64,000 nt of DNA from Acidimicrobium ferrooxidans (GTDB taxonomy: Bacteria > Actinomycetota > Geothermincolia > Fen-727 > Anoxymicrobiaceae): the NCBI GenBank assembly GCA_020723485.1, contig DYIU01000001.1, positions 124,001-188,000 on the forward strand, written 5' to 3'. The position numbers were made by a program, and so were the translations under genes. How positions within the stretch are numbered: position 1 is the first letter of the stretch; every line of letters begins with the position of its first letter. Under the pieces are notes generated by a model that was given only the letters and a program-made list of their open reading frames with translations, was not told the origin of the DNA and did not search any database. Shown in pieces: positions 47,688 to 56,628 of the stretch.

Positions 47688-47804
47688 AAAAGGGGTCAGG
47701 TCGTTTGTTGCATTATATCGGATGCACAAAGGGGTCAGGTCGTTTGTTGCATTTTCAGCCCATTGCTGGCAAACGATGGATAACGCAACAAACGACCTGA
47801 CCCC
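47688..47804. repeat. GGGGTCA-core palindromic element B (tandem direct plus inverted copy)
   Basis: AAAGGGGTCAGGTCGTTTGT(TGCATT) occurs directly at 47689-47714 and 47728-47753; the inverted copy GCAACAAACGACCTGACCCC is at 47785-47804 and pairs perfectly for 20 bases with 47731-47750. The element fills the 137-base gap between argS and the HtrA gene. Flanking CCCCAATGTG is shared with element D. Confidence 0.8.
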
Positions 47805-47813
47805 AATGTGCGG

Positions 47814-51271: not shown

Positions 51272-52228
51272 ATGGCAGAACCTGTCAGGGACGTAGCGAT
51301 ACTCGGGGGAGGCCCGTCGGGCCTTACCGCCGGGCTGTACCTGCGCCGCGCTCGGATTGACGCTGTGATGCTCGAACAGCAACTTCCCGGAGGCCAGGCT
51401 GTCTACTCGCCGCTCATCGAGAACTTCCCAGGGTTCCCGGAGGGCATCCCCGGCGCCGACCTCGTCGACCTCATGAAGCAGCAGGTCGACAGGTTCGAGC
51501 TGGAGATAAAGACCTTCGCCCCGGTACAGGAGTTCGTGCTCGACGGCAACGTGAAGAGGCTCAGGTATGAAGGCGGCGGGCTCGACGCTTACGCGGTAAT
51601 AATCGCCACGGGACGCAGCCCCCGAAAGATAGGCATCCCCGGCGAGGAGGAGTACGCCGGCAGGGGGATATCGTACTGCGCCACGTGTGATGCTCCTCTG
51701 TTCAAGGAGAAGGTCGTCCTCGTGGTCGGCGGGGGTGACGCCGCAGTGGAAGAGGCTCTGCACCTTGCGCGTTTCGCGAGCAAGGTCATCCTGGTACACC
51801 GCAGGGACGAGCTCCGCGCGTCCTCGTACCTGCAGGAGCGCATCCTCTCCGAGCCCAGGGTCGAGTTCATGTGGAACTCGGAGCTGAGGGAGATTAAGGG
51901 TGAGCAGACGGTCCAGTCGGCATCCGTCTACAACAACGTGACCGGCGAGACCGCCGAGGTCCCGGTCTCAGGCGTCTTCTTCTACGTGGGAAACGAGCCC
52001 AACACCAGGTTCCTCCGGGACATCGTAGAGCTCAACGAGGGCGGGTATGTGGTCACGGACGACCGCCTGGAATCCAGCGTGCCCGGCATCTTCGCATCGG
52101 GCGACGTCAGGGCGAACCACTTCAAGCAGGTCATACTCGCCGCCGCCGAGGGGGCTCTTGCTGCAATGTCGGCCCAGCGTTACCTCGAGACCATCGGGGC
52201 GCGCAAGGCCTACGAGGGAGGCCACTGA
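51272..52228 (+). CDS. trxB: Thioredoxin reductase
   Basis: A 318-residue flavoprotein disulfide reductase: AILGGGPSGLTAGLYL for FAD, LPGGQAVYSPLIENFPGF, redox-active SYCATCDAPLF (CATC), VVGGGDAAVEEALHLA for NADPH and GIFASGDVRANHFKQ at the end. ATG 51272 has GGGAGGAAG upstream; the longer frame to 51143 is not needed. Reduces thioredoxin. It ends overlapping the DUF3842 start (TGATG). Confidence 0.94.
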   Translation: MAEPVRDVAILGGGPSGLTAGLYLRRARIDAVMLEQQLPGGQAVYSPLIENFPGFPEGIPGADLVDLMKQQVDRFELEIKTFAPVQEFVLDGNVKRLRYEGGGLDAYAVIIATGRSPRKIGIPGEEEYAGRGISYCATCDAPLFKEKVVLVVGGGDAAVEEALHLARFASKVILVHRRDELRASSYLQERILSEPRVEFMWNSELREIKGEQTVQSASVYNNVTGETAEVPVSGVFFYVGNEPNTRFLRDIVELNEGGYVVTDDRLESSVPGIFASGDVRANHFKQVILAAAEGALAAMSAQRYLETIGARKAYEGGH

Positions 52229-52671
52229 TGGTGATCGCGGTCGTGGACGGCATGGGCGGGAGCATCGGTACCCAGATAGTGCTCGGGCTCCGCGGGGCCC
52301 TGCCGGACGAGACGGAGATAATCGCGCTGGGGACCAACGCGATAGCAACGGGCAGCATGATGAGGGCCAAGGCCACGCGCGGGGCGACCGGCGAGAACGC
52401 CATCGCTTTCTCCATCAGCGAGGCGGACATCATAATGGGATCGCTGTCCATCATGGTGCCGAACTCGATGATGGGTGAGGTGACCCCCCGCATAGCCACC
52501 GCGGTCGCCTCCGCCGGGGGTCGCAAGATACTCCTTCCCATATCGAACCCGCCGCTCGAGATACTGGGCATCTCCAGGAAACCGCTCCAGCAGCTCATCA
52601 AGGACGCCGTCTACCTTGTGCGCGAGCAGCTCGGCATGCCCGCCGGGCCTGAGGAGGATACCGATGTGTGA
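52228..52671 (+). CDS. DUF3842 family protein
   Basis: A 147-residue protein beginning VIAVVDGMGGSIGTQIVLGLRG, a glycine-rich nucleotide-binding-like turn, with conserved TNAIATGSMMRAKAT and SNPPLEILGISRKPL. This matches the DUF3842 family of anaerobes; its role is unknown. It is coupled to trxB (one-base overlap) and to the CooT-like gene (eight-base overlap), which suggests a common function with redox or nickel handling. Confidence 0.83.
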   Translation: MVIAVVDGMGGSIGTQIVLGLRGALPDETEIIALGTNAIATGSMMRAKATRGATGENAIAFSISEADIIMGSLSIMVPNSMMGEVTPRIATAVASAGGRKILLPISNPPLEILGISRKPLQQLIKDAVYLVREQLGMPAGPEEDTDV

Positions 52672-52849
52672 GGCAGTAGTGTTCGTCGTGAAGGATGGCG
52701 AGAGACAGCAGGTCATGGAAAACGTCGTGACCGTCCACCCGGAGGGGGATAAGCTGCTGTTAACCGACCTGTTCGGGGAGCAGAAGCTGATTGCGGCGCG
52801 CATAGAGAAGGTCGACCTCACCGGCCACGAGATAATCCTTACGACGTAG
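52664..52849 (+). CDS. CooT-like nickel-binding protein
   Basis: A 61-residue protein starting MCEAVVFVVKDGER with the N-terminal Met-Cys typical of CooT, where the Cys binds nickel; conserved ENVVTVHPEGDKLLLTDLFGEQKLI follows. CooT supplies nickel to CO dehydrogenase in Rhodospirillum. ATG 52664 has GAGGAGG six bases upstream and overlaps the DUF3842 stop. It immediately precedes the nickel/cobalt ECF transporter. Confidence 0.87.
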   Translation: MCEAVVFVVKDGERQQVMENVVTVHPEGDKLLLTDLFGEQKLIAARIEKVDLTGHEIILTT

Positions 52850-52853
52850 GACG

Positions 52854-52882
52854 TTGCGCGGGGCCGCACGTTCTGCTATAAG
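52854..52882 (+). promoter_or_regulatory. Promoter-like sequence upstream of cbiM
   Basis: TTGCGC (52854-52859) and TATAAG (52877-52882) are 17 bases apart. Transcription from about 52889 gives a leader of about 130 bases before the cbiM start. Confidence 0.5.
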
Positions 52883-52888
52883 TGGTGA

Positions 52889-53017
52889 GGCGAGACGGGC
52901 CAAGTAGGCCCGCTCAGAAGTAAGCAGAATTCTTGACCGAAGGCCACGAAGGCCGGATTCCGGTAGGAAACCGGTTCGAGGTGGCTTTTTTTTCGCCACC
53001 GGAAAGAGGTGGTCGGA
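52889..53017 (+). promoter_or_regulatory. Structured leader with candidate attenuator upstream of cbiM
   Basis: The leader contains GGGCC/GGCCC, GCTC and CCGG/CCGG hairpins, a long stem (GCCACGAAGGCCGG with CCGGTTCGAGGTGGC, bulged) ending in T8, i.e. a terminator-like structure, followed by CCACC/GGTGG that can cover the AAAGAGGTGG Shine-Dalgarno. Mutually exclusive folds are plausible, so metal or cofactor control is inferred. I do not recognise a cobalamin B12 box or the NiCo consensus. Confidence 0.55.
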
Positions 53018-53707
53018 TTGCATATCCCCGACGGGTTCCTCGACCCGAAGACCTGGGGAGCCCTTACCGCCGCATCGGCAGGCACAACGGGGTACGCCCT
53101 CTACAAGGTGCGCGAGAAGATGGATGAGAAGATCATCCCGATGCTCGGCATCACGGCCGCGTTCATCTTCGCCGCCCAGATGCTCAACTTCCCGGTAGCC
53201 GGAGGCACAAGCGGCCATTTCCTGGGAGCGATGCTGGCATGCGTTCTCCTTGGCGCCTGGCCCGGATTCCTGGTCATGGTGGTGGTCCTGGTTGTGCAGT
53301 GCCTCTTTTTCGCCGACGGCGGTCTAACCGCACTCGGGGCCAACGTCTTCAACATGGCCGTTGTCGCCGGGCTGCTGAGCTATTTCCTCATGGTGCTGGC
53401 CCGGAAGACCCTTTCCAGGCCGCTCGGTGACAAATCTTCGCTCCTGGTGACCACCGCGTTCTTCTCCTGGCTCTCGGTCGTTCTTGCCTCGGCCGCCTGC
53501 TCCTTCGAGCTCGCGATATCAGGGACGGTCCCTCTATCGACGGTCCTGCCGGCCATGGTCGGGGTGCACTCTGTCATCGGCATAGGTGAGGCGGTCATCA
53601 CGACGGTCGTGGTAGCTGTCGTGCTGCAGGCGAGGCCCGACCTCGTGGACGCCTACAGGGGAGCAGGCGTGCTGCCCGTTCCGGCCGGCGGAGAGGAGGC
53701 GGCGTGA
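53018..53707 (+). CDS. cbiM: CbiM/NikM-type ECF transporter substrate-binding subunit
   Basis: A 229-residue membrane protein starting MHIPDGFLDP; I chose TTG 53018 because the mature N-terminus with His2 is essential to metal binding in this family and the AAAGAGGTGG Shine-Dalgarno fits. About seven helices; GGTSGHFLGAMLA, FFADGGLTALGANVFNM and GVHSVIGIGEAVIT are conserved core segments. It takes up nickel or cobalt with the following subunits. Confidence 0.9.
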   Translation: MHIPDGFLDPKTWGALTAASAGTTGYALYKVREKMDEKIIPMLGITAAFIFAAQMLNFPVAGGTSGHFLGAMLACVLLGAWPGFLVMVVVLVVQCLFFADGGLTALGANVFNMAVVAGLLSYFLMVLARKTLSRPLGDKSSLLVTTAFFSWLSVVLASAACSFELAISGTVPLSTVLPAMVGVHSVIGIGEAVITTVVVAVVLQARPDLVDAYRGAGVLPVPAGGEEAA

Positions 53708-54099
53708 TGGACGGGCTCAGGAAGAAGCTGTTCAGCCGGAAGAGCCTCGGCCTGTGGATATTCCTGGGCGTCGCCCTGGCGGTGACGGTGGGACTCGCCG
53801 TTTTCGTCTCCCCATGGGCTTCATCGAGCCCGGACGGCCTGGAGAAAGTCGCCGAAGAAAAAGGCTTCTCCGGCGCCGCGGAGGACGCCGAGCCGGCGTG
53901 GAGCGGGTCCCCGGTGCCGGACTACGCTGTCAGAGGCGTGGAGAATGAGCGGGTCGCCACCGGTCTTTCGGGACTCATCGGGGTAGCGGTGACGGTCGCG
54001 GCGGCGGTCGGCCTGGGCCTGCTGGCTTTCGTGCTGAACCGGATACATACCAGGAAGAAAGCGGGCGGGGAGACGCGAGAGCAGCCCATTGAAACATGA
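53707..54099 (+). CDS. PDGLE-domain ECF accessory protein (CbiN/NikN-like)
   Basis: A 130-residue protein with two predicted helices (LWIFLGVALAVTVGLAVFV and TGLSGLIGVAVTVAAAVGLGLLAFVL) around the external SSPDGLEKVAEEKGF motif that names the family. ATG 53707 overlaps the cbiM stop (TGATG). Usually an additional small subunit of nickel/cobalt ECF importers. Confidence 0.87.
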   Translation: MDGLRKKLFSRKSLGLWIFLGVALAVTVGLAVFVSPWASSSPDGLEKVAEEKGFSGAAEDAEPAWSGSPVPDYAVRGVENERVATGLSGLIGVAVTVAAAVGLGLLAFVLNRIHTRKKAGGETREQPIET

Positions 54100-54853
54100 C
54101 TTCATCGACAGGTACTCGAGGCTGGAGAGCCCGGTCCACGCGCTCGATCCCAGGGCGAAGATAATCGCGCTGTTCGTCCTCATAGTCGCATGCGTACTGA
54201 CGCCGCCCACCGAGTGGTGGCCGTTCGCGATATACGCGGCTCTCGTGGTCATCATCGCCAATGCTTCCCGGCTCCCGGTCAAATATATGGTCACGCGCCT
54301 GCTCATGGTGCTGCCGTTCGTGCTGGTCGTGGCTGTCTTCGTCCCTTTCATGCACAAGGGGGGACCCTCCTACGACCTGGGCCTCTTCTCGGTCTCCCGT
54401 GACGGCCTGCTCATCCTGTGGAACGTGACAATAAAGGCGCTCATTTCCGTGTCGTGCCTGATACTGCTGTCGTCCACCACCCAGTTCGGTGACCTCATGC
54501 ACGGCTTCGAGCGCCTGCACGTGCCCAGGTTCTTCACCACGGTCGCCTCGTTCATGTACCGGTACCTGTTCGTCATCGTGGACGAGGCGGAGCGCATGAA
54601 GCGGGCGCGCGATTCGCGCAACTTCCGCGGGCGCTGGATATGGCACGCCAGGGTCGTCGGCTACATGGTCGCTTCCCTGTTCCTGCGCAGCCAGGAGCGC
54701 GCGGAGCGCGTTTACCAGGCGATGACCGCGCGGGGGTTCGACGGGACCTTCCCGCGGTGGACCGAGCCCAGGATGCGGGCCGCCGATTACGTCTTCATGA
54801 TAATCGTGTCGCTGACGGCGGTAGCGGGGAGGCTGGTAGTCATATGGACGTGA
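54089..54853 (+). CDS. cbiQ: EcfT/CbiQ-type transmembrane subunit
   Basis: A 254-residue membrane protein: FIDRYSRLESPVHALDPRAKII at the N-terminus is the EcfT signature, ALVVIIANASRLPVKYM follows, and the coupling segments EAERMKRARDSRNFRG and RSQERAERVYQAMTARGFDG carry the Ala-Arg-Gly-type pairs that contact the ATPase. TTG start inside the preceding gene's end. Overlaps the ATPase gene by ten bases. Confidence 0.9.
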   Translation: MKHDFIDRYSRLESPVHALDPRAKIIALFVLIVACVLTPPTEWWPFAIYAALVVIIANASRLPVKYMVTRLLMVLPFVLVVAVFVPFMHKGGPSYDLGLFSVSRDGLLILWNVTIKALISVSCLILLSSTTQFGDLMHGFERLHVPRFFTTVASFMYRYLFVIVDEAERMKRARDSRNFRGRWIWHARVVGYMVASLFLRSQERAERVYQAMTARGFDGTFPRWTEPRMRAADYVFMIIVSLTAVAGRLVVIWT

Positions 54854-55569
54854 TTCCGCTGGCCGGAGAGACGGCCATTCTGATCGAAGGCCTCAGCTAC
54901 AGTTACCCGGACGGCACGGAAGCCCTGAAGGGTGTCGACCTCCTGGTCAAGCAGGGGGAGAGCGTCGCCCTGATGGGGCCGAACGGCGCCGGCAAATCCA
55001 CCCTCGCCCTCCACCTGAACGGCATCCTGACCGGGCAAGGCAGGGTCGAGATAATGGGCATCGAGGTCAACAGGAAGAACATGCGCCGGGTGCGCGACCT
55101 GGTGGGCCTGGTCTTCCAGGACCCCGACGATCAGCTCTTCTCGCCGACGGTGCGCGAGGACGTGGCCTTCGGCCCGCTCAACCAGCGCCTCGAGCCGGAC
55201 CAGGTGGAGCATGCCGTCTCGAGGGCCCTCACCTGGGTGGGCATGGAAGGCTCCGGGGAGCGCTCGCCCCACCACATGAGCTTCGGCGAGAAGAAGCGCG
55301 TCTCCCTGGCCACCGTGCTCGCGATGGACCCGGAGATACTGGTGCTCGATGAGCCCGCCGCCAACCTGGACCCGCGGGGGCGCAGGGGATTCCTCGAGCT
55401 CATCAACATACTGGAGGCCACCAAGGTGGTCGTGACGCACGACCTCCAGATGGCCCGCGAGGTGTGCACCCGGGTGGTGGTGATGGACGGCGGCAGGATA
55501 GTGGCGGACGGCCGCCCCGAGACCGTTTTCGCGGACGGGACACTGCTCGAGCGGCACGGCCTGGTCTGA
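54844..55569 (+). CDS. cbiO: CbiO-type ECF transporter ATPase
   Basis: A 241-residue ABC ATPase: GPNGAGKST, Q-loop FQDPDDQLFSPTV, signature MSFGEKKR (a variant of LSGGQ), ILVLDEPAANLD and THDL. ATG 54844 has GGGAGG upstream; the longer frame belongs to the cbiQ shadow. Completes the nickel/cobalt importer together with CbiM, PDGLE and CbiQ. Confidence 0.92.
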   Translation: MDVIPLAGETAILIEGLSYSYPDGTEALKGVDLLVKQGESVALMGPNGAGKSTLALHLNGILTGQGRVEIMGIEVNRKNMRRVRDLVGLVFQDPDDQLFSPTVREDVAFGPLNQRLEPDQVEHAVSRALTWVGMEGSGERSPHHMSFGEKKRVSLATVLAMDPEILVLDEPAANLDPRGRRGFLELINILEATKVVVTHDLQMAREVCTRVVVMDGGRIVADGRPETVFADGTLLERHGLV

Positions 55570-56552: not shown

Positions 56553-56628
56553 TGGGGTCAGGTCACTTGTTGCGTTTGAATCTTCCGCTGAGGAATGCTC
56601 CGTGAACGCAACAAGTGACCTGACCCCA
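56553..56628. repeat. GGGGTCA-core palindromic element D
   Basis: A perfect 24-base inverted repeat: left arm 56553-56576, right arm 56605-56628, loop 28 bases; arms read TGGGGTCAGGTCACTTGTTG and then CGTT. Compared with element B the arms differ at two positions that change together on both arms (GT/AC against AC/GT), so the palindrome is preserved. It lies ten bases after the response regulator stop and just before the terminator at 56634. Confidence 0.82.

Follow-up and report, generated by a model that had tools for sequence, protein, structure and literature searches.

Between a cooT gene and a cbiM gene, the 64,000-nucleotide stretch of DNA analysed here (the window, from Acidimicrobium ferrooxidans assembly GCA_020723485.1) carries a short interval that a first-pass annotation, made from the letters alone, had read as a structured leader with plausible metal or cofactor control by an unrecognised RNA. 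Is this interval a regulatory RNA and, if so, of what kind, and what does it control? Comparison of related sequences and their predicted folds suggests that the leader is probably a copy of a widespread, unclassified cis-regulatory RNA controlling nickel (or nickel and cobalt) genes by transcription attenuation. Pfam confirmed both neighbours that the annotation had assigned, CooT upstream and cbiM downstream, within the following series of genes:

52228..52671, + strand, DUF3842 gene, overlapping cooT (Pfam)
52664..52849, + strand, cooT, nickel-binding protein family PF10133 (Pfam)
53018..53707, + strand, cbiM, nickel/cobalt ECF S component, TTG start (Pfam and ORF list)
53704..54099, + strand, PDGLE-domain (CbiN-like) gene (Pfam)
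54089..54853, + strand, cbiQ (Pfam)
54853..55569, + strand, ECF ATPase (cbiO-type; Pfam ABC ATPase); this is the stretch tested, the true start lying slightly upstream

For cbiM, the TTG at 53018 (MHIPDGFL) is better placed as a start than the GTG at 53009 of the ORF list. The interval contains a promoter followed by a leader some 130 nt long; the copy of the element itself spans 52888-53017 and contains three short hairpins, P1, P2, and P3, with NNGNA pentaloops. Its parts are as follows:

52854..52882, + strand, promoter TTGCGC-17 nt-TATAAG with TG before the -10 box (sequence; pattern in seven of eight leaders)
52896..52912, + strand, hairpin P1, CGGGCC-AAGUA-GGCCCG (homologue alignment, covariation)
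52942..52954, + strand, hairpin P2 (putative antiterminator), GGCC-ACGAA-GGCC (covariation)
52960..52974, + strand, hairpin P3, CCGGU-AGGAA-ACCGG, within the terminator loop (covariation)
52942..52993, + strand, predicted terminator, 52942-52947 paired with 52981-52986 and then U8 (52986-52993), which excludes P2 (folding, covariation)
52980..53000, + strand, GGTGGC/GCCACC pair with the U-tract in its loop, a family-specific alternative to the terminator (alignment)
52995..53012, + strand, GCCACC (52995-53000), able to pair with the ribosome site GAGGTGG (53006-53012) (folds)

The promoter-like site, the hairpin-rich leader of about 130 bases, the terminator-like stem with T8, and the alternative stem able to hide the ribosome site, all of which had been proposed from the letters alone, were each recovered. 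The leader folds with a minimum free energy of -77.7 kcal/mol, better than its shuffled versions (z -2.88; 2 of 200 shuffles equally good); GGTGGC with T8 occupies 52980-52993, and GCCACC can pair either back with GGTGGC or forward with GAGGTGG. Simple scans missed both the promoter, because its -35 box matches only TTG and its -10 box lacks the final T that the scan requires, and the terminator, because its loop, which contains P3, exceeds the limit of 8.

A BLAST search of the leader against 59 relatives returned seven clear homologues (E 3.7e-22 to 1.6e-4), all of them between cooT and cbiM. The aligned homologues share the promoter, P1 (GGGCC-AAGUA-GGCCC), P2 (GGCC-ACGAA-GGCC), and P3 (CCGGU-nGGAA-ACCGG), followed by GGUGGC, the U-tract, and GCCAC(C/A). 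The promoter pattern, TTGNNN-17/18-TA(T/C)AA(G/A), is absent from only one of the eight leaders (window included), that of L013, which has a repeat insertion. The repeat in L013/L045, where P1 is not recognisable, is GACCTGACCCC, similar to GGGGTCAGGTC(G/A)(T/C)TTGTTGC; intergenic copies of the latter lie in the window at 47689-47811 and 56553-56628, as inverted pairs (arms of 24-33 nt) and one direct pair.

Diverged copies in other families of the window's class were detected with R1, a covariance model built from six sequences, and the model R2 matched all 31 class genomes at E≤0.05 and 30 of them at E≤1e-4, the exception being G006 (E 0.027). Within the window's own genome, BLAST found no second copy of the leader (next best E 0.49), and R2 gives one match. 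Of the 22 best class loci (L039-L060), all but L048 and L059 have cbiM downstream of the element (20 loci), and in five genomes (G020, G021, G022, G023, and G028) tandem double copies precede cbiM. No cooT match was found in the examined flanks (up to 1.5 kb) of the loci in families f5-f7. In L053, L054, L055, L057, L058, L060, and L065, bases before P2 were seen by eye to be complementary to bases after the U-tract (for example, CGCGGGG/CCCCGCG), a possible outer stem in the read-through RNA. Among the 80 listed matches of an exact-pattern scan, the set that was rescored with R1 (L149-L186 were left out), only L071, L096, L124, and L142, all known relatives, scored above 50 bits; the others stood at chance level. 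A home-made regular-expression finder for the core near cooT also matched shuffled loci (24 of 90) and reversed ones (13 of 30) and was replaced by covariance models.

At least two hairpins with an NNGN(A/T) pentaloop are present in 27 of 30 elements and at least three in 18 of 30, typical loops being AAGUA, AAGAA, ACGAA, ACGGA, AUGAA, AGGAA, and GCGAA. Covariation was assessed on two alignments, A4 (25 sequences) and A5 (36 sequences). On A4, P1, P2, and P3 together have 87.8% of cells paired and 14 of 17 pairs changed on both sides, with a covariation of 0.437 versus 0.208 in shuffled alignments (reached by 0 of 500) and at most 0.130 in slid versions; the conserved, covarying stems that the first-pass annotation had proposed to seek in cbiM- and nik-type leaders of related genomes were thus found. 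The 5' arm of P2 and its loop can pair instead with an arm before the U-tract (GUGGC in the window), which gives an intrinsic terminator around P3. On A4, the covariation score of this terminator lies above all shuffles, but its count of doubly changed pairs is equalled by 319 of 500 shuffles and that of pair types by 301; on A5, 91.7% of cells are paired, the score is 0.275 versus 0.169 shuffled (0 of 500), and the doubly changed pairs are reached by 9 and the pair types by 1 of 500 shuffles. The terminator pair that involves position 4 of the P2 loop is, on A5, AU in 22 sequences, GC in 9, CG in 1, GU in 1, and other in 3. P2 itself scores 0.422 on A5 versus 0.237 shuffled (0 of 500), its two count measures being reached by 59 and 70 of 500 shuffles. 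Since the terminator and P2 each covary on the same 36 rows, both of these mutually exclusive helices appear to have been kept. Constrained folding placed the terminator ahead of the P2 form in 36 of 36 elements, by 3.2 to 15.9 kcal/mol. A transcription attenuator should have conserved terminator and antiterminator helices that exclude each other; these were found, with weaker count measures, and the element is very probably an attenuator RNA. It could also be read as an ordinary terminator of the cooT operon whose further folding is due to chance, and indeed it is very stable and lies between two genes in the window; the conserved promoter upstream, the covariation and shared loops of P1, P2, and P3, and the many different first genes found downstream of the element make this reading most improbable.

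Comparison with known RNA classes identified no family to which the element belongs. The whole Rfam 15 library gave one noise match to another family in the leader at E≤10 and none at E≤1 in nine homologous loci, and its only gathering-level matches in the whole window are two tRNAs elsewhere. The absence of a cobalamin match in the window agrees with the annotation, which had set the leader apart from known B12 boxes; the match to a known class that it had named as counterevidence is missing, as neither the cobalamin nor the NiCo model matches the leader or the homologous elements tested. The NiCo (czcD) riboswitch, a four-helix junction ahead of efflux genes, is like the element in its nickel/cobalt-related genes, but its Rfam 15 model does not match the sequences tested. 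The guanidine-II (mini-ykkC) riboswitch also has two small hairpins with kept loops and a free linker; however, its loops are ACGR tetraloops, from which those of the element differ, its genes concern guanidine, and the element has no Rfam match. Cobalamin riboswitches, too, lie ahead of cbiM-type cobalt transporters (according to the available part of PMC2667541), but the sole cobalamin match among the loci sits apart from the element. It is found in L344 at 2183-2389 on the - strand (102 bits), about 0.6 kb upstream of an element near 1501 on the same strand, where the downstream ORF is CobN-like.

The nearest class is that of the ANTAR-target RNAs (the eut, nas, and ami leaders), which, as described in the available parts of PMC3369931 and PMC8164766, likewise have two similar short hairpins in tandem, whose loops are conserved and of which the second overlaps an intrinsic terminator. 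The same portions of these sources require both hairpins of the class to have a hexanucleotide loop with A1 and G4, whereas the element has (N)NGNA pentaloops and often a third hairpin. The proteins are also missing in carriers: ANTAR domains (PF03861) were found in only 21 of 31 class genomes; of the ten without a match, nine are carriers, and the completeness of six of those nine is 90% or more. ANTAR proteins were thus excluded as the general partner, and it is hardly credible that the element is an ANTAR target; it works like a hairpin-recognition attenuator yet departs from this class in both loop and partner. The only ANTAR match in the window's genome (G000:C5:218923-219078, L038) adjoins, by eye, genes for NADH/hydrogenase-type subunits and not cbiM. 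We recognised no description of the element in the open-access literature (mostly titles and beginnings of abstracts, supplements excluded), which does not prove its absence in print; the accessible main text of PMC2864571, PMC11109978, and PMC8632094 mentions neither nickel, cobalt, cbiM, nor CooT, and the accessible text of PMC3766115 mentions neither nickel nor cbiM. The element is apparently an undescribed RNA switch that lies mostly ahead of nickel/cobalt uptake and handling genes in many oxygen-shunning bacteria.

The annotation had regarded restriction to this strain as fatal to its proposal; conservation extends far outside it, to at least three phyla. R2 matched 66 of 396 Actinomycetota genomes at E≤1e-3, 11 of these with only partial, weak, and doubtful matches. 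R3, a covariance model of the core including the terminator stem, was run on two further phyla at E≤1e-4 (rough E-values). It matched 65 of 297 genomes in the phylum to which the deltaproteobacterial MAG G405 belongs and 54 of 299 in that of the Selenomonadaceae MAG G397; a single genome can have as many as ten matches (G771). At the same threshold, R3 also matched 3 of 11 other-phylum genomes that had come in through chance pattern-scan matches. As a check independent of R3, we took the 95 nt upstream of 59 matches, a stretch outside the model: a P1-type hairpin (NNGNA or NGNA loop, stem of at least 5) precedes 33 of the 59, compared with a mean of 1.4 and a maximum of 5 in 200 shuffles, and 27 of the 34 five-base loops there are NNGNA. 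Some R3 matches may be plain terminators, and the R2 match of G223 (E 4e-6), retained in the Actinomycetota counts, is unconfirmed by R3. In Acetoanaerobium noterae (NZ_CP154629), R3 gave only 10.5 bits (E 2.7); by eye, however, its cbiM leader has a P1 with the loop AUGAA, a CGU-UGAA-ACG hairpin, and a competing terminator with U7, and cooT is followed there by a DUF3842 gene. If this element is right, our counts are lower bounds. The record NZ_CP154629.1 (2.63 Mb) is labelled a plasmid, has only four annotated features, and looks like a chromosome. Near five other plasmid cbiM genes (L399-L403), R3 found nothing at E≤5.

Targets in the window's class besides cbiM include genes for a SAM methyltransferase, a Peripla_BP_2 protein, and an SBP_bac_5 protein; other Actinomycetota add ZnuA-like, CobN-like, and ChlI/D-like proteins. 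A methyltransferase of the FFNxRAxxWD type recurs as a target (L221-L224, L226, L229-L233, L237, and L240). Several loci in other Actinomycetota show the arrangement cooT, element, a small protein starting with MCxxG and often ending His-rich, and cbiM; such MCxxG ORFs (some with a His-rich end), or His-rich ORFs, stand between element and cbiM in L250, L256, L245, L259, and similar loci and are possibly new small nickel-handling proteins. At 59 loci outside Actinomycetota (L308-L366), where the target was taken as the longest downstream ORF and the outputs were sorted by hand, 49 elements precede classed genes. Of these, 24 are nickel/cobalt genes (cbiM 14, cbiQ 4, nikA-like 2, and nikB, larC, cooT, and cobN 1 each), with LarC and the NikB-type permease exceeding their NCBIfam cut-offs and the NikA-like, CobN, and Opp/Nik ATPase proteins remaining below theirs. 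The others encode TonB receptors (7), DUF3842 proteins (4), methyltransferases (3), ExbB/D (2), DUF3450 proteins (2), ZnuA (2), ECF S components (2), MbnP-like proteins (2; our own reading, made without a family match), and an Opp/Nik ATPase (1). The remaining 10 loci were not assigned and have no clear metal gene. As some targets (TonB receptors, ZnuA-like proteins, methyltransferases, and ECF S components) have no known concern with nickel, cobalt or a metal complex might be the signal instead. In L302 (G405) and L317 (G596), the element comes after an ORF whose 3' end is His-rich; besides following a promoter, it may thus also lie within an operon.

Given these targets, we think it quite likely that the element is metal-responsive. 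Control by an unrecognised RNA, as the first-pass annotation had it, is supported by the negative Rfam comparison and the conserved, covarying stems. Metal-binding riboswitches are a known kind, and the RNA might itself bind a metal or metal complex, as a nickel/cobalt riboswitch whose two hairpin loops meet like those of the two-hairpin guanidine-II riboswitch. This possibility, which we consider rather unlikely, would fit the strict conservation of the loops only, the presence of at least two hairpins in most elements, and the elements in genomes without a CooT match (G235, G903, G483, and G732); however, there is no long conserved pocket beyond the short loops, the number and spacing of hairpins vary, and a ligand that stabilises P2 should give the wrong sign for uptake genes.

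We lean instead towards protein-mediated control by a trans-acting factor, because hairpin number and spacing vary while the loops stay the same and because direct stabilisation of P2 by a metal would turn uptake genes on when metal is abundant. Termination would be the default, since the terminator is computed to be the more stable form. A factor recognising the repeated loops would hold P2 and so permit read-through when metal is scarce, and metal would release the factor and let the terminator form; in the window's family, a second step could hide the ribosome site. The factor may grip two hairpins, as ANTAR proteins do in the available descriptions (PMC3369931, PMC8164766).

CooT is a specific, if doubtful, candidate for this factor. 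As a nickel-sensing antiterminator of anaerobes, its metal-free dimer would bind two hairpins, prevent termination, and keep nickel-uptake genes and its own DUF3842-cooT operon readable, until nickel at Cys2 caused its release and termination. Consistent with this, elements adjoin cooT or precede DUF3842-cooT, and among the 396 Actinomycetota genomes those with a full-length element (E≤1e-5) comprise 48 with and 2 without CooT, versus 31 with and 315 without among the others (Fisher 4e-38; outside the window's class 20, 2, 29, and 314, p 1e-17; both tests ignore phylogeny). Of all 66 genomes matched at E≤1e-3, 51 have CooT and 15 do not, the latter including all 11 with only partial R2 matches. 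In the two other phyla, CooT is present in 37 of the 40 strongest carriers versus 14 of 40 picked noncarriers (no R3 match at 1e-4; p 9e-8). Shared nickel use could, however, explain this co-occurrence, the figures for which have no control family and take no account of phylogeny.

The small CooT dimer binds one nickel through Cys2 (Kd 9 nM), and in Rhodospirillum rubrum a mutant in cooT requires added nickel (the available part of the review PMC6006190). The protein is acidic (mean net charge -4.7, range -8 to -2, in 38 proteins), and its fold has no clear match to an RNA-binding protein: a predicted model (pLDDT 94.1) clearly matched only CooT structures, followed by 2qgg, which comes from Acinetobacter and has no named function (Foldseek E 0.02), and RimM 3h9n (E 0.09), and VIA-align gave F1 epsilon subunits (Z up to 5.6). 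COG1532, with which CooT or metallochaperones have been linked, was presumably once named a "predicted RNA-binding protein." Carriers without CooT also count against its role: besides G903, G483, and G732, the two full-length Actinomycetota carriers are G223, which is doubtful, and G235, which has four elements by R3. For G235, which is 97% complete, an assembly gap or another sensor may account for the missing match; its four R3 elements lie on one contig (G235:C134; L253, L291, L301, L306, and L307), some near a ChlI/D-like chelatase gene. It is because of these carriers, the acidity, the lack of an RNA-binding fold, and shared nickel use that we put CooT forward only tentatively.

In acetogens, sulfate reducers, and further anaerobes, nickel goes into key enzymes, among them CO dehydrogenase and hydrogenases. 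So far, CooT has been classed as a nickel chaperone serving CO dehydrogenase. In a 2009 survey, fewer than half of the organisms that have NikABCDE also had NikR (PMC2667541, as far as available), which leaves the control of uptake in the rest open. A conserved switch ahead of cbiM, nikA-like, nikB, larC, cooT, and TonB-receptor genes would supply a missing metal regulon. It would also allow the roles of CooT and DUF3842 to be tested and would mark uptake genes whose metal has yet to be assigned.
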